From Kofleriaceae bacterium (GTDB taxonomy: Bacteria > Myxococcota_A > Polyangia > Haliangiales > Haliangiaceae): DNA of 64,000 nucleotides. Where the stretch lies: contig JAGPCY010000009.1 of assembly GCA_018057825.1 (NCBI GenBank), positions 62,001-126,000 of the forward strand, in the 5' to 3' direction. Below are positions 23,920-33,090 of this stretch, piece by piece; the first letter of the stretch is position 1; the number at the start of each line of letters is the position of its first letter. A model generated the notes under the pieces. That model ran no database searches and was not told the origin of the DNA. It was given only the letters and a program-made list of their open reading frames with translations. The position numbers and the translations under genes were made by a program.

Positions 23920-26226
23920 ATGCTCCAACGTCGCCGCTTTGTCTTCCTCGCCGCCCTCGCGGCGATCGCGGTGGTGTGGCTGTGGCAGGCCCGCAGCCCG
24001 CGCTCCACTTCGACCGCGTCGTCTCCACCGCCTGCCGACCTCGCCTGGGTCGGTGAGATCCGCTCGGCGGCCGGCGGACCGGTCGCCGCCGCCACCGTCA
24101 CCGCGATCGCGATCGCCGGCGATGAGGCGCCGCGGATCGTCGCCACCGCGACCACCACCAGCGACGGCGGCTACCGCCTGGCCCGAGCCGCCGACCTCGC
24201 CGACGGCGTCGTCCTGCTCCAGGTCCGCCACGCCGCCCACGCCGCCAGCGGCCGCCGCATCGACCCGACCCAGGCGCGCCACGACTTCGTCCTCGAGCCC
24301 CGCGGCGCCGATCTCCGGATCGTGGTCGTCGACGACGCGCGGCGACCGGTCGCCGGGGCCCAGGTCGAGATCGGGGTCGAGCCGGAACACGGCGACGCCG
24401 ACAGCGTCGTGTGGCTGGCGCTGACCGCCGACGCCAGCGGCCGCGCGCTCGCGCCGAGCATCACCGCCGGGGCCGCGACGATCCACTGGCACGCGCGCGC
24501 CCCGGGCCACGGCCGCGCGGTCGGGGTCCACGGCAAGCCGGTCGGCGGTGGCGCGATCGAGCTCACCGCGGTCCTCACGCCCGGCGTCCCGGTGGTCGGC
24601 CAGGTCGTCGATGAGACCGGCGCCACCGTGCCCGAGGTCGCGCTCACCCTGGTCGAGCACGACGGCCCGTGGCGGGCGGACGTGCACAGCGACGGCGACG
24701 GCCGCTTCGCGATCGACGACGCGCCGCCCGGGATCGCGGCCCGCGTCACGGTCAGCGGCGACTACGTCGCGCGCGGCGGCTACGAGGCGGTGGCCGTGAC
24801 CTTGCCGACCGCGGCCGGCCCCGCGCTGCGGATCGAGGTCGAGCCGGCGTCGGCGATCGCCGGCGTGGTCACCGACGCCGCCGGTCGTCCCATCGCCGGG
24901 GCCACGATCGCCGCCGAGCCGCTCGACGGTCGCCACGGCTCGACGCGCACCGTCACGAGCGGGCGCGACGGAGGCTTCCGAGTGGCGGGCCTGCGCGCCG
25001 GCACGCCGTGGACGGTCGCGGTCCGCCATGCCGAGTTCGCGCCGACGTTCGTCGACGAGGTCGCCGCCGGTGACGACGCCCTGGCGGTGGTCCTGGTGGC
25101 CGGCGGCGGGCTGGCCGGTCGGGTCGTCGACGGTGACGGCGCGCCGGTCGCCGAGGCCGAGATCTACGTCCATCGGACCCGGCGCGATGGCGCCGCCATC
25201 GTCGGCCTGGCCGAGCACACCACCGCCACCACCGGCGCCGACGGTCGCTGGGCGCTGGCCCACCTGTCGCCGGGCGAGTTCCGGGTCGAGCTGCGCCCGC
25301 GCCACCGCATGCAGTATGCGCCGCTGGCCGCCGCCCTGCGCGAGGTCGTGGTGGTCGAGGGCGAGGTCCAGACTGTCGACGATCTGATCGCCGAGCGGCC
25401 CGGCGCCCTGGCGCTCGCGGTCCGCGCCGACCGCGACCTGGCCGGGGCCCGCGGCGTCGCCATGCTCCTGCCGGCTGGCCGCGGCGGCGCGCCCCACCGC
25501 GTCGAGGTCCAGCTCGGGGCCGACGGCGAGGTCACCCTCGACGGCGTCGCGCCCGGCACCTACCGCGCGGGCCTGTACCTTCCGGGCCATGGTTTCGTCA
25601 CCACCGACAGCCTCACCGTCGATGGCGGCGGCCGCGCTCGCGCCGAGCTGGCGTTCGGTGCGCGCTTCGCGGTCACGGGCACGGTCCGGAAGCCGGACGG
25701 CTCACCCGCGGTCGGCGCGCTGGTCGAGGGGTTTCGCCTCGATGGCGGCGGCCAGTCGAGCCACGGCCTGCCCGGGCGCGCTCCCGACAACTGGAGCGGC
25801 GACCAGACCCGCACCGACGAGCGCGGCCAGTTCCGCCTGGCCGGCCTGACCCCCGGCCGCTACCGGGTGCGGGCGGTCGGTCCAGATAGCGCCGCCGCGC
25901 CGGTCATCCGCGACCTCGAGCTGTCGTCCGCCGCCGACCTCGAGCTGGCCCTGGCCCCCGCCGGCGACCTCGAGATCCAGGTCGTCGACGCCGCCGGCGA
26001 GGCCGCGCCAGGCAAGGCGGTGGTCGTCGAGGCCGACGGCGGACGGATGTTCTCCGCCGCGGTCCGCACCGACGCCGCGGGCGTGGCGCGGGTCGGCGGC
26101 CTGGCGGCGCTCACCTACCAGATCACCGCCGCCGTCGAGGGTCAGCCGCGGCTGGCCCTGGCGCTGCCGGCCGGCACGCGCCGCACCGTCGTGCTGCGCG
26201 CTCAACCCCAGGGAGGCACTCCATGA
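23920..26226 (+). CDS. Membrane-anchored protein of repeated carboxypeptidase-regulatory-like (CnaB-type) domains
   Basis: A 768-aa protein with an N-terminal signal anchor (RRRFVFLAALAAIAVVWLW) and then seven or eight beta-sandwich repeats of about 80-100 residues. Each shows the carboxypeptidase-regulatory-like pattern G-x-V-x-D-x-x-G-x-P-(I/V)-A-G-A followed by T-x-x-D-G-x-(Y/F)-x-(L/V). The ATG at 23920 sits just before the hydrophobic segment; an upstream ATG at 23836 would add 28 residues and bury the signal. Such domains usually act as surface stalks or adhesins. Its stop codon overlaps the start of the WSC-repeat gene in ATGA, so the two exported proteins are probably made together. 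No catalytic domain is visible. Confidence 0.82.
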   Translation: MLQRRRFVFLAALAAIAVVWLWQARSPRSTSTASSPPPADLAWVGEIRSAAGGPVAAATVTAIAIAGDEAPRIVATATTTSDGGYRLARAADLADGVVLLQVRHAAHAASGRRIDPTQARHDFVLEPRGADLRIVVVDDARRPVAGAQVEIGVEPEHGDADSVVWLALTADASGRALAPSITAGAATIHWHARAPGHGRAVGVHGKPVGGGAIELTAVLTPGVPVVGQVVDETGATVPEVALTLVEHDGPWRADVHSDGDGRFAIDDAPPGIAARVTVSGDYVARGGYEAVAVTLPTAAGPALRIEVEPASAIAGVVTDAAGRPIAGATIAAEPLDGRHGSTRTVTSGRDGGFRVAGLRAGTPWTVAVRHAEFAPTFVDEVAAGDDALAVVLVAGGGLAGRVVDGDGAPVAEAEIYVHRTRRDGAAIVGLAEHTTATTGADGRWALAHLSPGEFRVELRPRHRMQYAPLAAALREVVVVEGEVQTVDDLIAERPGALALAVRADRDLAGARGVAMLLPAGRGGAPHRVEVQLGADGEVTLDGVAPGTYRAGLYLPGHGFVTTDSLTVDGGGRARAELAFGARFAVTGTVRKPDGSPAVGALVEGFRLDGGGQSSHGLPGRAPDNWSGDQTRTDERGQFRLAGLTPGRYRVRAVGPDSAAAPVIRDLELSSAADLELALAPAGDLEIQVVDAAGEAAPGKAVVVEADGGRMFSAAVRTDAAGVARVGGLAALTYQITAAVEGQPRLALALPAGTRRTVVLRAQPQGGTP

Positions 26227-29200
26227 AACGCTATCTCGCACTCTTCGTCATCGCCGTCGCAGCGGTCGTGGCGGTCCCGACCCGGACCGCCCACGCCCAG
26301 TCCTATCAGGGTTGCTACTACGACGATGGCAGTCGCGCCCTCGACGCCTGGCTCGGCGACAACCACACCGTCGAGAGCTGCATCGCCGCGGCGCGCAGCG
26401 CCGGTCACGCCTACGCCGGCCTGCAGTGGTACGGCCAGTGTTTCGGCGGCAGCGCCCCCGGTTACTGGCAGACCGCTGCGTCGGAGTGCAACACCCCGTG
26501 CAGCGCCGCACCGTCGCAGATCTGCGGCGGTAGCTGGCGCAACTCGATCTACGCGACCGGTAGCGCCGGTCCGGCGCCGACCTATTGCCTGAAGAATGGC
26601 ACCTACCAGTCGTGCAGCGGGCTGACCTGCGGCGTGAGCGCCTGTTACGACCAGAACTGGAGCTGGATGACCTGCCCGGCGGATCTCACCGATAGCTGCC
26701 AGTCGGCGACCTGGTGCCTGAAGGACGGCACCTACCAGTCGTGCACCGGCCTGACCTGCGGCGTGAGCGCCTGCTACGACCAGAACTGGGGCTGGATGAC
26801 CTGCCCCGCGGATCTCACCGATAGCTGCCAGACGGCGACCTGGTGCCTGAAGAATGGCACCTATCAGTCGTGCAGCGGACTGACCTGCGGCGTGAGCGCC
26901 TGTTACGACCAGAACTGGGGGTGGATGACGTGCCCCGCGGATCTGACCGACACCTGCCAGACCGCGACCTGGTGCCTGAAGAATGGCACCTACCAGTCGT
27001 GCAGCGGGCTGACCTGCGGCGTGAGCGCCTGTTACGACCAGAACTGGAGCTGGATGACCTGCCCCGCGGATCTGACCGACACCTGTCAGACGGCGACCTG
27101 GTGCCTGAAGGACGGCACCTACCAGTCGTGCAGCGGGCTGACCTGCGGCGTGACCGGCTGCTACGACCAGAACTGGTGGGCGATGACCTGCCCGGCGGAT
27201 CTGACCGACACCTGCCAGACCGCAACCTGGTGCTTGAAGGACGGCAGCTATCAGTCGTGTGCTGGCCAGACCTGCGGCGTGACCGCCTGCTACGACCAGA
27301 ACTGGGGAGGCATGACCTGCCCGACCGACCTCACCGACACCTGCCCGCTGTCGTACGAGGGCTACCTCGACGTCGTCACCTGCAGCCAAGTTGCAGGCTG
27401 GGTGTGGTCGCCGTCGCTGCCCAACACTCCCCTCACGGTCGAGGTGCTCGAGGGCGGCGTAGTGATCGCCACGACCGAGGCCAACCAGTATCGGGCCGAC
27501 GTCCACGCCGCTGGCAAGGGCAACGGCTGGCACGCCTTCAGCTACGCGCTGCCGACCCGGACCGGCACCCGCAACCTCGGCGTCCGCGTCAACGGCACGA
27601 CCTACCACCTCTATGGCTCGCCGCGCGACGTGACCTGCGCCGCCGTCGCCGCCGCCGAGCCGCTGTGTGGTGGTGGCACCGCGACCGCCGCCAGCCTGCC
27701 CAGCGTCTCGCAGATGGTGTGCGACGTCGGCGTCGCCAACGACCAGCTCGCGATCCGCTTCCTCGGCCAGTGGTTCGCGGTCAACTGGAGCGGCGCCGAC
27801 TTCTCGGTCGCCAACAACGTCGCGGCGTCGTCGATCTACGCGACGCCGTCGGATAGCACCCAGACCGTCTACGCCGACACCGGCTACGTCCAGACCCGCC
27901 AGGAGCAGCTCGAGCGTCAGGCCGCGTCGGGCACGCCCAACACCGTGCACCAGCGCCGCACCTACAACGTGTCGGTCGGCGGCCGCACGTACAACGTCGT
28001 CGCCGAGCAGGTCGTCTACGACACCCGCTACGGCATCGCCGGCGACGGTCTCGAGATCGCCGGTGATCTGGTGTTCCAGGTCACGATGAACGATCCGAGC
28101 GGCGGCACCTGGACCGTGACCGTCAACCCGCGCCGGGCCCAGCTCAACGACAGCGTCGGCGCCGAAGGCGACCAGACCGCCGCCGAGTCCCTCGAGAGCT
28201 GGAGTGGCGAGCAGCTCGGCTCGCCCGGCGCGCTCTTCACCCAGCGCGACGTCCGCTACCTGCCGGAGGTCGAGCTAGGGTCGGCGGTCAAGGTCGCCGG
28301 CTCCGGGCAGACCGAGTTCTCGGTTGGCGCCAACCCAGCGGTCGGCGCGGCCCTCGAGCAGCTCGTGCAGACCGGCCCGTACCAGTCGTTCAGCGAGGCC
28401 GGCGCGGTCACCGCGACCGGCGGCCTCGACAGCCTGACGAGCACCGAGACCTCGGACACCGTGCTCGCCGATCTCCATCGCGCGACGCAGTTCTACCTCG
28501 ACTCGCGCAACGGCGCGGGCTTCACCAACCCCGGCTACGACCAGCCGCTCCTGTCGCTGTCCCCGATCAACTGGAAGTTCCGCCACACGCTGTTCGAGCA
28601 CACCCAGCGCTGGCCGTTCCTGGCCGGGCTCTGCGGCCTCGAGGTCCACGCCCGCTCGTACATGGACGGCGCGATGCAGAACAGCCGGGCCTGCTTCGAC
28701 GGTCGCTACGTGTTCGCCAACCTGACCGGTCACCTGCAGATCGGCCTCACCGCCGGCGGCGGCTTCGGCTGCGGCGTGCCGTTTATCGCCTCGGCCTCGG
28801 CGGGCCTGCAGGGGCGGGTCGTCGGGCGGGTCGACGTCGCCAGCACGGTCGCGTCCAACCAGCTCACCGCCGCGGTCCGGCTGTACTCCGAGGTGTCGTA
28901 CGACGCGTACTTCTCGACCCGTGTCCTGTTCTGGCGCAAGTCGTGGGAGAAGCGGCTCGGCACGCTGGTGCGGTTCAACCGCGAGTACCAGCACACCGTC
29001 GGCGCCGACGTCGCGAGCAACACCTGTCCGACCATCGAGACCAACTGTCAGGACGGCGGCGACGACGACGGCGACGGTCTGTCCGACGGCTCCGACTCCG
29101 ATTGTTACGCGCCCCAGAGCCAACCCACGGTCAATAGCGAGCTCAACCAGCAGCGCAACGCGCTCTTGCAGAAGCTGGCGAACAAGCCGGGGAACGGAGG

Positions 29201-29894
29201 CAACAACTGCACGCTGTGGCGGAGCTGGACCCAGGATCAACGCGAGGTGTTCGCGACCATGACCGATCGCCTGTACCAGGCGCGGCTGTCGACCACCGGC
29301 CGGAGCGTGCTGTCACACCTCGACGACCTGTATGCGGTCAAGGGGCGCGACGGCTCGTCCTGTGGTGGCAGTGAGTACAATCGCGCGTTCTTCTCGATGG
29401 ACGACACGCTGGCGACCGCGGTTCGGCAGATCGCCCAGCGGCGCGCCGACGCGCCGACGATCTCCGACGTGCTCAGCGGGGTCGGAACCTGGCGCGGGAG
29501 CTGCGATCCCAACGCCCACATCCCGTTCGCCAACGGCGCCAACTTCGGCAGCCTCGACACTCACCGCGGCGGCACGACCACCAACCCGTGCCCGATCTTG
29601 GGCCACTCCGACGCCTATCCCTCGGGGCAGATCCACTTCTTCCCGGACCCGACCGCGGCCCGCGCCAACCAGCCCATCGGTCGCCCTGGCCTCGACCGGA
29701 CGTTGGTGGACCCCAACGCCCTCGAGATGGATCACGACTACGACCTGTTCCACAACAGCGCGACGCAGTGCTACAGCCGCGGCGGCGCGCCGTGTGGACC
29801 GCTGTCGTTCTTCGGGTTGTGCAAGAAGAACCTCGACAACTACCGCACGACCTTCAACCGCGACGTGATGGCCTTCGTCCCGACGGGGTGCTGA
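26223..29894 (+). CDS. Secreted WSC-domain protein with six near-identical cysteine-rich repeats
   Basis: A 1223-aa secreted protein. The signal peptide is residues 1-25 (cleavage after AHA). A WSC carbohydrate-binding-like domain follows (about 27-115, with YQGCYYDD and QICGGSWRNSIYA). Six 43-residue Cys-rich repeats occupy about 120-377, each TWCLK-G-YQSC-G-TCGV-CYDQNW-MTCP-DLTD-C. A beta-rich domain follows (about 378-480, WVWSPSLPNTPLTVEV), then a long unassigned region, a calcium-binding-like Asp stretch (DGGDDDGDGLSDGSDSDC, about 942-960) and a Cys-containing C-terminal domain of about 250 residues with conserved-looking His and Asp (ALEMDHDYDLFHN). The ribosome site AGGGAGG lies 8 nt before the ATG, inside the upstream gene. 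Probably a surface glycan-binding protein; an enzymatic C-terminus is possible but not recognised. Confidence 0.85.
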   Translation: MKRYLALFVIAVAAVVAVPTRTAHAQSYQGCYYDDGSRALDAWLGDNHTVESCIAAARSAGHAYAGLQWYGQCFGGSAPGYWQTAASECNTPCSAAPSQICGGSWRNSIYATGSAGPAPTYCLKNGTYQSCSGLTCGVSACYDQNWSWMTCPADLTDSCQSATWCLKDGTYQSCTGLTCGVSACYDQNWGWMTCPADLTDSCQTATWCLKNGTYQSCSGLTCGVSACYDQNWGWMTCPADLTDTCQTATWCLKNGTYQSCSGLTCGVSACYDQNWSWMTCPADLTDTCQTATWCLKDGTYQSCSGLTCGVTGCYDQNWWAMTCPADLTDTCQTATWCLKDGSYQSCAGQTCGVTACYDQNWGGMTCPTDLTDTCPLSYEGYLDVVTCSQVAGWVWSPSLPNTPLTVEVLEGGVVIATTEANQYRADVHAAGKGNGWHAFSYALPTRTGTRNLGVRVNGTTYHLYGSPRDVTCAAVAAAEPLCGGGTATAASLPSVSQMVCDVGVANDQLAIRFLGQWFAVNWSGADFSVANNVAASSIYATPSDSTQTVYADTGYVQTRQEQLERQAASGTPNTVHQRRTYNVSVGGRTYNVVAEQVVYDTRYGIAGDGLEIAGDLVFQVTMNDPSGGTWTVTVNPRRAQLNDSVGAEGDQTAAESLESWSGEQLGSPGALFTQRDVRYLPEVELGSAVKVAGSGQTEFSVGANPAVGAALEQLVQTGPYQSFSEAGAVTATGGLDSLTSTETSDTVLADLHRATQFYLDSRNGAGFTNPGYDQPLLSLSPINWKFRHTLFEHTQRWPFLAGLCGLEVHARSYMDGAMQNSRACFDGRYVFANLTGHLQIGLTAGGGFGCGVPFIASASAGLQGRVVGRVDVASTVASNQLTAAVRLYSEVSYDAYFSTRVLFWRKSWEKRLGTLVRFNREYQHTVGADVASNTCPTIETNCQDGGDDDGDGLSDGSDSDCYAPQSQPTVNSELNQQRNALLQKLANKPGNGGNNCTLWRSWTQDQREVFATMTDRLYQARLSTTGRSVLSHLDDLYAVKGRDGSSCGGSEYNRAFFSMDDTLATAVRQIAQRRADAPTISDVLSGVGTWRGSCDPNAHIPFANGANFGSLDTHRGGTTTNPCPILGHSDAYPSGQIHFFPDPTAARANQPIGRPGLDRTLVDPNALEMDHDYDLFHNSATQCYSRGGAPCGPLSFFGLCKKNLDNYRTTFNRDVMAFVPTGC
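26580..27353 (+). repeat. Six in-frame 129-bp tandem repeats
   Basis: Six consecutive units of exactly 129 bp (43 codons) within the WSC-protein gene. Units 2-4 are nearly identical at DNA level, and units 1, 5 and 6 show a few substitutions. Each unit encodes six cysteines (the first unit has a Tyr where the others have Trp next to the first Cys), suggesting a small disulfide-stabilised module. The DNA identity implies recent duplication or ongoing recombination. Confidence 0.95.
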
Positions 29895-29904
29895 GCTCCG
29901 GGGC

Positions 29905-30483
29905 TCACCGACCGAGCGCCACCACCGCGGCGCGGATCTCGGCGGACCAGGCCGAGAACGAGCGCGCGCTGGCGTCCCAGAACAAGGTGCGCGTGCCGGT
30001 GCGGTCGAACACGAAGGTATCGTGCTTCACCGCGCCGGCCTCCATCTCGGCCCAGGCGACGCGCCCGCCGCTGGGGTCGCGGAAGATCGGCACCGTCACC
30101 AGGGTCGCGAAGTCGGTGGCGTTGACGTCGGACAGCACGACGAACTGCACGTCGTACCCTTCGGCGGTCAGCGCGTCGGACAGGGTGGCGAGGGCCCCAG
30201 CCTGGGACCGGCAGGCGCTTCAAAACCCTTCCAGGAGCGACACCACGATCACCCGGTTGGTGAAGGTGTCGACGCCGTAGGTCTGGCCGACCCGGGGGCT
30301 CGCCGGCTGGACGTCCTCGAGGCGCCAGGTGGGAAGCCGGCGCACGCCGTCGCTGGCGTCGCCGCCGAGCGTGGCGTCGTTGCCGACCGCCGAGTCGACC
30401 GTGGCGTTGCCGGGGCCGGTGTCACCGGCGCAGGCCACCAGGGCGAGGGAGAGCGCGAGGGCGAGGGGCGTGCGTGCGATCAC
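29905..30483 (-). CDS. Candidate selenoprotein: thioredoxin-like lipoprotein with UxxC motif (in-frame TGA at 30220-30222)
   Basis: Read as one 192-residue protein with selenocysteine at position 88. GTG at 30483 starts a lipoprotein signal ending LVAC. The frame continues through a low-complexity tether into a redoxin-like strand NRVIVVSLLEGF, meets TGA, then continues without another stop as SACRSQAGALATLSDAL and VQFVVLSDVNATDFATL to a natural stop at 29905. The TGA occupies the first Cys position of the thioredoxin CxxC after the central beta strand, giving U-S-A-C. Sequence on both sides of the TGA keeps redoxin-fold character and the frame is unchanged, which argues against a frameshift pseudogene. 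A hairpin of bacterial-SECIS type follows the TGA. The start overlaps the stop of the upstream gene in GTGA. A standard annotation would report a truncated 87-residue lipoprotein. Selenocysteine insertion is an inference. Confidence 0.75.
30181..30204 (-). promoter_or_regulatory. Putative bacterial SECIS hairpin after the lipoprotein UGA
   Basis: Starting 16 nt after the TGA, CAGGCUGG can pair with CCACCCUG (seven pairs with one C-C mismatch) around an 8-nt loop that begins with GG, 24 nt from the codon. This fits the loose bSECIS rules: loop 16-37 nt downstream and a G in the first two loop bases. A competing nearer hairpin, GCCUG/CAGGC, displays GGUC in its loop as in E. coli fdhF, but sits closer than usual. 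Folding was done by eye. Confidence 0.5.
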
Positions 30484-31856
30484 GGTGACTCCTGAGCCGG
30501 CGCGGCCGGCGCGGTCGGTGGGGTGCCCATGGGGGCCGCCAGGGGAGAGGTCAGTGGCGAGAGGCCATTGGAGCTGCCGCGGCGCGCCGCGCGGAGCCGA
30601 TCGACGACCGCGACCACGTCGAGGGCGTCGGGACCGAGCAAGAGGGCCACGCGCTTGCCGTCGGGCCCGAACACCTCGACCACCGGGAGCCCGCGGGCCT
30701 CGACTGGCAGCTCGACCGCGCCGTCCTCGGTGGCGTCGAGGCGGCGGATCACGACGTCGGGCCAGCGCGGCGCCGCGGCCGAGAGGCGCGCGTCGATCTC
30801 GCCGCACGGCGCGCACCACGAGGCCCAGTAGTCGACCACCGTGATCGTGCCGACCGCGGGCGCCGGGGCCGCGAGCGGCGGCGGCGGGCGCCGACGCGGG
30901 GCGGGTGGGGCATAGGTCAGCCCGACGAAGCCGCCGACGCTGGGGACGAGCTGGTTGCCGACCACGTCAGCCACCAGCGGGATCCGCAGGCCCAGGCTGG
31001 CGCTGACGCCGCGGCCGAGCGTGGCCGACACCGACGGCACCGCCGTCCACTGCCAGCCGCCGACGTTGGCGCTGGCGATGCGCCCGCCGGCGAACGGATC
31101 GGGCTCGCTGGCCCCGCCGCGCCACTGCAGATCGGAGATCGCGACCGCCGCCAGCCACGGCTTGGCCGCCACCCGCACGCCGACCGTGGTCCGAACCTCG
31201 GGCCCCCAGGCGAAGCCGTCGTCGGCCTGGCCGAGGGGCCCGCGGGCGCTGAGCTGGGCGAGGGCCGAAACTCGCCGCGCGATCGCCCAGCGGCCGTCGG
31301 CCTCGAGGAGCCACCACGGCACGCCGCGGCCGAGCGTCAGCGCGATCGACTCCGGCGGCAAGTTGGCGGCGCCGCTGCGGGCGACGTAGGGACCGGTCGG
31401 GACCACCGCGCCGAGGGCGAGCGCGCCAGCGAACGCCGCGTCCGGCCACCACCGCGATCCGTCCTGGCGCAGCCGCAGCTCGAGGTCCCCGACGCTGTCG
31501 TCGGTCCGCTCGCCCATGATCGACCGGGTCACGACCGCGCCGGCCGGGAGCTGGACGTCGAGGGAGGTCGCGGTGGGCGCGGTCGCGATCACCTGGAGCG
31601 TGGCCAGGTGGACATCGATCGCGAGCTGGCTCGGGTTGGGCGCGATGGATCGGCCCTGCCACAGCTCGCGGTACGGCACGAAGGCGTAGCCGAGGCGGAC
31701 CGAGGTCGACCATCGGCCGCCTCCGGCCGCGGCGCTACCGTCGCTCGCTCCACCCGGGAGCGCGGGGTTCACTCACGTCGTGCATTGCGCGGCGCTGGGC
31801 CGCGCGGCGAGGAGCAGCAGGCCGGCGACGGCAGCGAGGGAGCGCACAGCGACCAT
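30480..31856 (-). CDS. Candidate selenoprotein: CxxU beta-barrel-like envelope protein with C-terminal thioredoxin domain (in-frame TGA at 31773-31775)
   Basis: Read as a 458-residue protein with selenocysteine at position 28. ATG at 31856 encodes a good signal peptide (LAAVAGLLLLAARPSAAQ), then C-T-T-TGA, then VNPALPGGASDG and on without interruption. The mature N-terminus would carry a CxxU motif just before NPALP, which recalls CxxC-x-NPNLP starts of myxobacterial outer-membrane proteins (from memory). Residues 50-310 alternate in a beta-barrel-like pattern (VRLGYAFVPY, LELRLRQD). After a Pro-rich linker, a thioredoxin domain (about 335-430) has WASWCAPC and cis-Pro GLPVVEV. Starting instead at the GTG after the TGA would give an outer-membrane-like protein without a signal peptide, whereas the signal peptide lies in frame directly before the TGA. 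A perfect 6-bp hairpin follows the TGA. It overlaps the next gene by GTGA. Confidence 0.75.
31746..31762 (-). promoter_or_regulatory. Putative bacterial SECIS hairpin after the CxxU UGA
   Basis: Eleven nt after the TGA, CGCUCC pairs perfectly with GGAGCG around the 5-nt loop CGGGU. The loop begins 17 nt after the codon and its second base is G. All three features (stem of at least 4 bp, loop 16-37 nt downstream, G in the first two loop bases) match the published consensus for bacterial SECIS elements. Folding was done by eye. Confidence 0.6.
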
Positions 31857-31872
31857 GGCGTACGGTACGCCA
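31856..31872. promoter_or_regulatory. Perfect 17-bp palindrome at the start codon of the CxxU gene
   Basis: TGGCGTAC-G-GTACGCCA is an 8+8 inverted repeat with a single central base. It covers the first base of the start codon and the 16 bases before it, where a ribosome-binding site would lie; no Shine-Dalgarno sequence is visible. It could be an operator for a dimeric repressor of the two-gene redox operon, or a translation-blocking structure in the mRNA. Confidence 0.45.
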
Positions 31873-31930
31873 GGTCGTGGCGGCGGTTACCGGGATTCGC
31901 GCCCGCCGCGACCCGCGCGGGCCGCCGGCG

Positions 31931-32908
31931 TCATCGCAGCCAGCCGCTGGCGTCGAACGCGGCGATCGTGGTGGCGAGCGCGTCGGGCAGCGGCGTGAAC
32001 GCGAGCGCCAGCTCCTGGGCCGCGCGCGTGGCGTCGGGGTGGACGTCCTCGAGGAGGAACTGGAGCTGGCCGGCCGGGATGAGCGGTGGCCGCCCGGTCA
32101 GCTTGGCCATCCGCTCGCCGGACCAGCTCACGGTGCGCGCGAGCCAGGTCGGCAGAACCCGCGGCACGCGGCCGCGCCCAGCGGCGGCGACCACGGCCTG
32201 GGCCAGCTCCACCAGCGTCACGAAGCGATCGTGGAGGATGTAGCGCGCGCCGATCGCGGCGCGCTCGGCCAGCAGGTGACCGCGCGCGACGTCCGGGGCG
32301 AACACCACCGGGATGCCCCCCGGCAAGAGCATGGGGATCTGCCCCTTCACGAGCCGCACCAGCAGCTCGTTGAGGCCTGGGTTCTGGACCGGCGCCGGAC
32401 CGAACACCGCGGATGGGTGGGTGTAGCGGACCGGCAGCCCGCGCGCCTGGAGCGCGACGATCGCGCGATCGGCGTCCTGCTTGGAGCGCTCGTAGGGTGA
32501 GCCCTTGGGCTCGTCGGCGAGCTGGTCCTCGTTGAACCGCTCGCCGCGCCGCCACGCGAACACGTCGATCGTGCTGGTATAGACGAAGCTGTCGACGCCG
32601 GCCGCCAGCGCGGCCTCGCCGACCAACCGCGAGCCATCGCAGTTCACCGCGGTGAAGCGTCGGGGATCGCGCAGCCACTGCTCCGGCAGGCCGGCGGTGT
32701 GGAAGACCGCGCGCACTCCCCTCATCGCCCGCGCGATCGACGCGCCATCGGTCACGTCGCCGGCCACCAGCTCGACCGCGCTGGGCACCAACGGCCGGGC
32801 GCGATCGATGTCGCGCACCACGGCGCGCACCGCGCGGCCTGCGGCGAGCAGCTCGGCGACGACGGCGGCGCCAACCGTACCAGTCGCGCCGGTGATCAAG
32901 GTCGTCAC
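31931..32908 (-). CDS. NAD(P)-dependent epimerase/dihydroflavonol-reductase-like SDR
   Basis: A 325-aa extended short-chain dehydrogenase. The N-terminal Rossmann motif is TGATGTVG, GDVTD contacts the cofactor, and the catalytic pair is in SPYERSK (Tyr and Lys), preceded by YTSTIDVF. The family includes sugar epimerases, 3-beta-hydroxysteroid dehydrogenases and flavonol reductases, and the substrate is not predictable. GTG at 32908 places the Rossmann motif at residue 7; upstream in-frame codons encode Arg/Ala-rich sequence without homology. The gene ends 74 bp before the selenoprotein operon on the same strand, but the palindrome between them suggests separate control. Confidence 0.9.
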   Translation of the reverse strand: MTTLITGATGTVGAAVVAELLAAGRAVRAVVRDIDRARPLVPSAVELVAGDVTDGASIARAMRGVRAVFHTAGLPEQWLRDPRRFTAVNCDGSRLVGEAALAAGVDSFVYTSTIDVFAWRRGERFNEDQLADEPKGSPYERSKQDADRAIVALQARGLPVRYTHPSAVFGPAPVQNPGLNELLVRLVKGQIPMLLPGGIPVVFAPDVARGHLLAERAAIGARYILHDRFVTLVELAQAVVAAAGRGRVPRVLPTWLARTVSWSGERMAKLTGRPPLIPAGQLQFLLEDVHPDATRAAQELALAFTPLPDALATTIAAFDASGWLR

Positions 32909-33090
32909 GGCGTCGACGCTAGCACCGGCGACGGCGCGGCGGCTATCCCCGCGGCGCGCTCGGCGTCGCACTCGGCGACGGGTCGCGCGGCGACGCCGGC
33001 CACCACCCGATCGCGAGACGGGTGCCGATCCGTGCCGGAGTCCGCCGTCGCCTGCCGGGGAAGCTCGGGCGAGGGGTGCGTCGCGCGCCC

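Follow-up and report, generated by a model that had tools for sequence, protein, structure and literature searches.

A conserved in-frame TGA very likely encodes selenocysteine in a Kofleriaceae protein that joins a predicted outer-membrane barrel to a thioredoxin domain

The DNA analysed here, referred to as the window, is a 64,000-nucleotide stretch of contig JAGPCY010000009.1 from a Kofleriaceae bacterium (assembly GCA_018057825.1; 8.9 Mb, 84 contigs). On its minus strand lies a gene (31856-30480; ATG at 31856, terminal TGA at 30482-30480) whose conserved in-frame TGA at codon 28 is, by comparison with natural relatives, very likely read as selenocysteine (Sec, U). With that codon translated the protein has 458 residues: a signal peptide leads into A23-Q24-C25-T-T-U28-V-N-P-A-L-P-G-G, and the beta-rich part that follows is joined by a Pro-rich linker to a thioredoxin domain. 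An earlier note on this DNA had read a signal peptide in frame into C-T-T-TGA and on into a 430-residue beta-rich protein with a C-terminal CAPC thioredoxin; all of these elements are present, and 430 residues separate the TGA from the terminal stop. The note had ended the signal peptide at residue 24; by eye, cleavage is more likely after A23, so that the mature chain would begin with Q24-C25. A lipoprotein start at C25 was ruled out, also by eye, since Q occupies position -1 and there is no lipobox. We give about an even chance to the whole account, in which this very likely selenoprotein is a predicted 12-strand barrel of the outer membrane whose N-terminal Cys-x-x-Sec would be re-reduced by its own C-terminal thioredoxin domain.

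Relatives were gathered from 36 genomes (seven), from 30 genomes of the family (three more) and, as a far clade named f27, from 377 genomes of the phylum. The f27 clade shares 29-36% identity with the window protein (alignment A2). At 1e-20 the phylum search matched 23 of the 377 genomes (four belong to the window's family, 19 to f27) in 38 rows, eight of which had no locus and were left unread. Named records holding relatives are metagenome-assembled genomes labelled Kofleriaceae, Myxococcales or Deltaproteobacteria. The family table has 37 loci, of which 36 are full length and pass the reading pattern ([AG]QCxx[UC] plus WCxxC); the sole failure, L091, was left out: its match lies at the locus end, starts at residue 68 and has no N-terminus.

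Codon 28 is TGA in 31 of the 36 full-length relatives and TGC or TGT in five. The Cys homologues run over the full length, from a signal peptide through CxxC at the corresponding position to a thioredoxin. It is this exchange of TGA for a cysteine codon in natural relatives that makes the window gene very likely to encode a selenoprotein. The selenoprotein reading of the earlier note is borne out in this way, and the outcome it had named as fatal, homologues that all begin at the downstream GTG without a signal peptide, is not what we found. A tree built without the site calls for at least two switches between TGA and Cys, which its supported branches make unavoidable. In all 36 relatives [AG]-Q-C is preceded by a start codon and, by eye, a hydrophobic stretch. 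Q24 and C25 are invariant despite varying third bases (CAG 30, CAA 6; TGC 32, TGT 4) and so behave as translated codons. Q24, C25, U/C28, C348 and C351 are conserved together in the 36 aligned members, residues that the reading pattern itself demanded.

A database search with the window protein, in which at most 7999 candidates were scored, gave at least 122 matches, of which 120 are listed, one being the window's own frame. Among the 120 listed, 63 begin at the codon directly after the TGA and 57 further downstream; none extends upstream of the TGA and none has CxxC there, so the annotations miss both the selenocysteine and the export signal. Searching with a Cys form returned 21 proteins (one nearly identical to the query), seven of which keep AQCxxC and a full N-terminus. 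A further protein search with A2 added almost nothing beyond the proteins already found.

The perfect 6-bp stem with a CGGGU loop described by the earlier note is there, from 11 nt past the TGA, that is, after a 10-nt spacer and with a loop of 5 nt. All 31 TGA members keep its four core pairs; no Cys member does, the five retaining three, three, one, one and two of them. Synonymous constraint was assessed over 52 four- or six-fold degenerate columns that are conserved in at least 26 of the 31 members. Variation is lowest at the codons of residues 33 (CTC, 31/31), 34 (CCG, 31/31) and 36 (GGA 28, GGG 3), whose entropies are 0, 0 and 0.46 where the median is 1.46; at these positions the Cys forms read TTC/TTT/CTG/TTG, TCG/AAC/ACG and GGC/GAC. 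This is a strong hint of selection at the RNA level, not a p-value, since kinship is ignored. The pair next to the core is G-C in 11 members, U-A in 11 and G/A in nine, seven of which can pair one base further on with a bulged A. Over the family hairpin 84.5% of cells are paired, and covariation reaches 0.113 against 0.067 in shuffled alignments, with one of 500 shuffles as high. A hairpin that appears selected as RNA is found shortly after the TGA, with stronger covariation in the sister family described below.

The machinery for selenocysteine insertion is present in the source genome: tRNA-Sec (75.4 bits), SelA (524), SelB (276, cut-off 242) and SelD (305) all score above their cut-offs, which removes the lack of a pathway as an objection. 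The SelD gene (G000:C18:293-1237, L115) has one in-frame TGA, so SelD is probably a selenoprotein itself. Among the 19 genomes of f27, tRNA-Sec was found in 18, including all five with Cys forms.

The earlier note's barrel-like region can be made specific. Predicted models show a 12-strand barrel fold that matches the COG4313 channels (Pput2725, PDB 4rl8; PF13557, Phenol_MetA_deg) and FapF (5o65); the VIA-align rows cover residues 23-319, and the thioredoxin end was examined by sequence. Unlike the window protein, the solved COG4313 and FapF chains that were matched have no thioredoxin domain. The even number of strands would place both ends of the barrel on the periplasmic side. In 4rl8 the N-terminus plugs the barrel, and the words cysteine and disulfide are absent from the text of its paper. 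PF13557 gave no match to the window protein (P0001) at E ≤ 1; four of the 22 members of alignment A1 match it at E ≤ 0.01 (best 5.9e-4), and a sister protein, L019, scores 36 bits (cut-off 22).

For the thioredoxin end, PF00085 scores 33.3 bits on the window protein (cut-off 23.5), and Pfam gave nothing else above cut-off there. All 22 members of A1 match PF00085 at E ≤ 0.01, and C348, C351 and P391, the cis-Pro position by sequence, are invariant in the 36 members. A sequence search of PDB with A1 gave 306 matches; the 60 listed all lie at the thioredoxin end. As to the suggestion of a two-centre redox protein, with CxxU at the N-terminus and CxxC at the C-terminus, the co-conservation of both motifs in the 36 members agrees with it, and the two centres may exchange electrons.

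The same genome holds a paralogue (G000:C43:57605-59164, minus strand; L003, L126) of 520 residues from a TTG start, in which the signal peptide is followed by G-G-A-U-A-G-U-S-N-P-N-L-P-V-G, a His-rich linker and a thioredoxin. Its family, which we call the sister family, was found in 45 of the 377 phylum genomes at 1e-25. Exactly two TGAs occur in 30 of the 51 match rows, and four more rows have two or three, whether or not a further stop is present. A locus was available for 30 of the 51 rows; three of these (L133, L149, L151) gave no motif, and 27 were read. Among 35 N-termini, 28 are UxxU, three CxxU and four CxxC, a count that omits L126 and L128, duplicates of L003 and L028, as well as L015 and L016. 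In the latter two the first Cys is missing and the only one stands where Sec would be (ATC-SNP), which suggests that the essential residue is the one at position 28. The in-frame thioredoxin motif is lacking in 19 of the 27 proteins. Seventeen of these 19, without L150 and L154, make up alignment A5; compared as profiles, the window family and A5 agree with probability 99.0 (E 6.6e-18, 295 columns), dyad aligned on dyad. The barrel-only A5 gave no match in a PDB sequence search.

In 25 of the 35 sister genes the hairpin lies in one register; outside it are the four CxxC forms, which have lost the GTC-GGN of that register, and six UxxU forms with another loop. Within the 25, the third base of the Leu codon pairs with the third base of the Gly codon as C-G (10), G-C (10), U-A (4) or U-G (1), and covariation is 0.253 against 0.105 when shuffled, a value reached by none of 500 shuffles. 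The neighbours of sister genes, eight proteins scanned in six of nine regions, gave TPR, Bestrophin-like, DUF362, Hint or nothing, and none is shared. A diselenide UxxU protein is the subject of a title cited in PMC2398784. The diselenide protein SelL, which is thioredoxin-like, shares with the sister family two selenocysteines in one redox motif; in the sister family UxxU sits instead on the N-terminus of a barrel.

Table 1. Features of the barrel gene and its partner in the window (positions of the whole stretch)
Feature	Position	Strand	Basis
Signal peptide, residues 1-23	31788..31856	minus	by eye: A-x-A before Q24
Redox dyad C25-T-T-U28, TGA 31775-31773	31773..31784	minus	TGA in 31/36, TGC/TGT in 5/36 relatives
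Hairpin resembling a selenocysteine insertion sequence (SECIS-like), CGCTCC-CGGGT-GGAGCG	31746..31762	minus	four core pairs intact in 31/31 TGA and 0/5 Cys members
Predicted 12-strand outer-membrane barrel, residues 50-315	30912..31709	minus	predicted models
Thioredoxin domain, residues 338-431, C348-A-P-C351	30564..30845	minus	PF00085 match
Partner redoxin lipoprotein gene P0002, own in-frame TGA 30222-30220	29905..30483	minus	adjoins barrel gene

Directly downstream, the GTG start of a partner gene, P0002, overlaps the stop of the barrel gene (GTGA). P0002 has a lipobox L-V-A-C (by eye), a redoxin fold and the motif G-F-U-S-A-C-R, and is likely a second selenoprotein on the strength of its sequence. 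It follows the barrel gene, with its TGA, in its own genome and at all ten named loci. A hairpin-like stretch of its own, GGTCCCAGGCTGGGGCC, comes after that TGA. P0002 resembles the Prx-like 2/SelP_N-like and TUGYCR redoxin selenoproteins (PMC2398784, in the part consulted) in its UxxC redoxin fold, with weak matches to NF053656 (TUGYCR redoxin; 38.2 bits, below the cut-off of 100) and to SelP_N (18.7 bits, below 23.2). In f27 a longer lipoprotein with W-C-x-x-C replaces the redoxin in five of 15 regions, once beside a Cys-form barrel (L109). One DsbD_TM protein might supply electrons. Upstream of the barrel gene, an epimerase-like gene (31931-32971) had no tblastn match in 30 regions. Convergent to the selenoprotein pair, at 26223-29894 on the plus strand, is a gene for a large protein that probably bears a signal peptide and contains six Cys-rich repeats nearly identical to one another (CLKxGxYQSC...).

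We propose the following scheme. After cleavage the chain would start Q24-C25-T-T-U28, and this mature start would put the Cys-Sec pair, by analogy with 4rl8, at the tip of the plug that the N-terminal segment forms in the barrel, on the side to which the thioredoxin also faces. Sec28 would attack an oxidised or electrophilic solute on its way into the barrel, C25 would resolve the product as a selenenylsulfide, and C348/C351 would reset the pair. Electrons may come from the lipoprotein UxxC redoxin and ultimately from a DsbD-like protein, and the reaction may also open or close the plug. That Sec28 reduces or traps such a solute and is then reset by the thioredoxin is proposed because the dyad and the thioredoxin cysteines occur together in the 36 members and both barrel ends are predicted to be periplasmic. 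Only tentatively would we widen the scheme to hold that Myxococcota have a superfamily of outer-membrane channels, so far missing from the lists, whose N-terminal plug is tipped with Cys-Sec or Sec-Sec (diselenide), a redox gate that would reduce solutes as they cross and that, in the window gene, would be wired to a built-in thioredoxin and to a second selenoprotein, the lipoprotein.

Several observations weigh against this account, from the reading of the TGA to the role of the dyad. When the 47 nt downstream of the TGA are folded to minimum energy, the core pairs form in only 19 of the 31 TGA members, so the evidence for the hairpin is mainly comparative; in the RNA of the window gene the core is present, but it is lost when the TGA is folded along. 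An Rfam scan of 29500-32200 gave no match. One TGA carrier, G144 (84% complete), gave no tRNA-Sec, and the five genomes with Cys forms keep theirs, so losing the machinery does not account for the switch between TGA and Cys. The gene is patchy, with matches in 11 of the 30 family genomes at 1e-30, and the other ten of the 15 f27 regions showed no redoxin partner at 1e-4. The N-terminal segment (residues 17-38) has a predicted local distance difference test (pLDDT) score below 50, and its supposed place in the lumen is taken by analogy from 4rl8. Finally, six histidines (H70, H91, H145, H146, H199 and H201, those of IHH and HQH included) are invariant in the 17 rows of A5, and the 678-residue sister protein L021 (G018:C94) joins barrel, His-rich linker and thioredoxin to a C-terminal Cupredoxin_1 domain (40.7 bits, cut-off 27); together these point to metals for the sister branch.

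Metals lead to the chief rival, which we consider possible but doubtful: the Cys-x-x-Sec would be mainly a soft-metal or metalloid ligand at the channel mouth, kept reduced by the thioredoxin, for uptake or exclusion of copper, mercury, selenite or the like. The His-rich linkers of ten CxxU/UxxU sister members, with 10-18 His per 60 residues, fit such a role along with the histidines and the cupredoxin domain just named, and the porin-like ExtI of Geobacter has been implicated in selenite/tellurite reduction (PMC5877670, in the part consulted). The window family, however, has no invariant His and at most 1-4 His per 60 residues, and the immediate neighbours in the window, to which the comparison was confined, are the epimerase-like gene and the redoxin. 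Less probable still, and in our judgement unlikely, is that the pair, as a structural selenenylsulfide, helps the barrel through oxidative folding, assembly or quality control. For MtrB an N-terminal CXXC has reportedly been proposed to act in such folding, although our literature searches did not show it; a CxxC right after a barrel's signal peptide would be the same layout, and Cys forms do exist. A structural bond has no obvious need for selenocysteine or for a thioredoxin on the same chain in all 36 members, but the latter argument is offset by the sister proteins that lack an in-frame thioredoxin motif. That the TGA is a true stop, with a cytoplasmic protein starting at the GTG behind it, is how gene callers annotate the listed matches, from that very codon or further downstream, but we reject it as extremely improbable given the full-length Cys homologues with signal peptides, the invariant Q24 and C25 with their varying third bases, a hairpin core intact only with TGA, and a barrel that requires export.

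Each element has precedent, be it the selenoprotein, the COG4313-type barrel or the UxxU motif; as far as our searches reach, their combination is new. The 119-entry selenoprotein table of 2026 (PMC13188914) has no such family, no Pfam or NCBIfam match corresponds to the window family as such, and no paper on it stood among those listed by searches of the open-licence literature on selenoproteins and barrels. Outer-membrane barrels with selenocysteine are on record: the table of PMC13188914 lists the FCYXU TonB receptor (NF049945) and the MtrB/PioB barrel (GSU2204; NF041027), and the consulted part of PMC12013277 names a TonB-dependent receptor. The window protein is like them in being a predicted barrel with selenocysteine and unlike them in its thioredoxin fusion, which the consulted parts of these two sources do not describe for either; NF049945 and NF041027 had no NCBIfam match among the window-family and sister proteins scanned. 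The 2026 selenoproteome review does not mention Myxococcota by name in its main text.

From the sequences, the barrel design, often with two likely selenocysteines, appears to recur across the phylum Myxococcota. It would place selenium chemistry at a predicted outer-membrane pore and, in the window protein, on one chain with a thioredoxin. If this is true, a single hairpin would drive two selenocysteine insertions three codons apart in the UxxU members. The sister family offers natural UxxU, CxxU and CxxC forms of one site, and with them the function of selenocysteine, diselenide chemistry and double insertion from one hairpin become directly testable.
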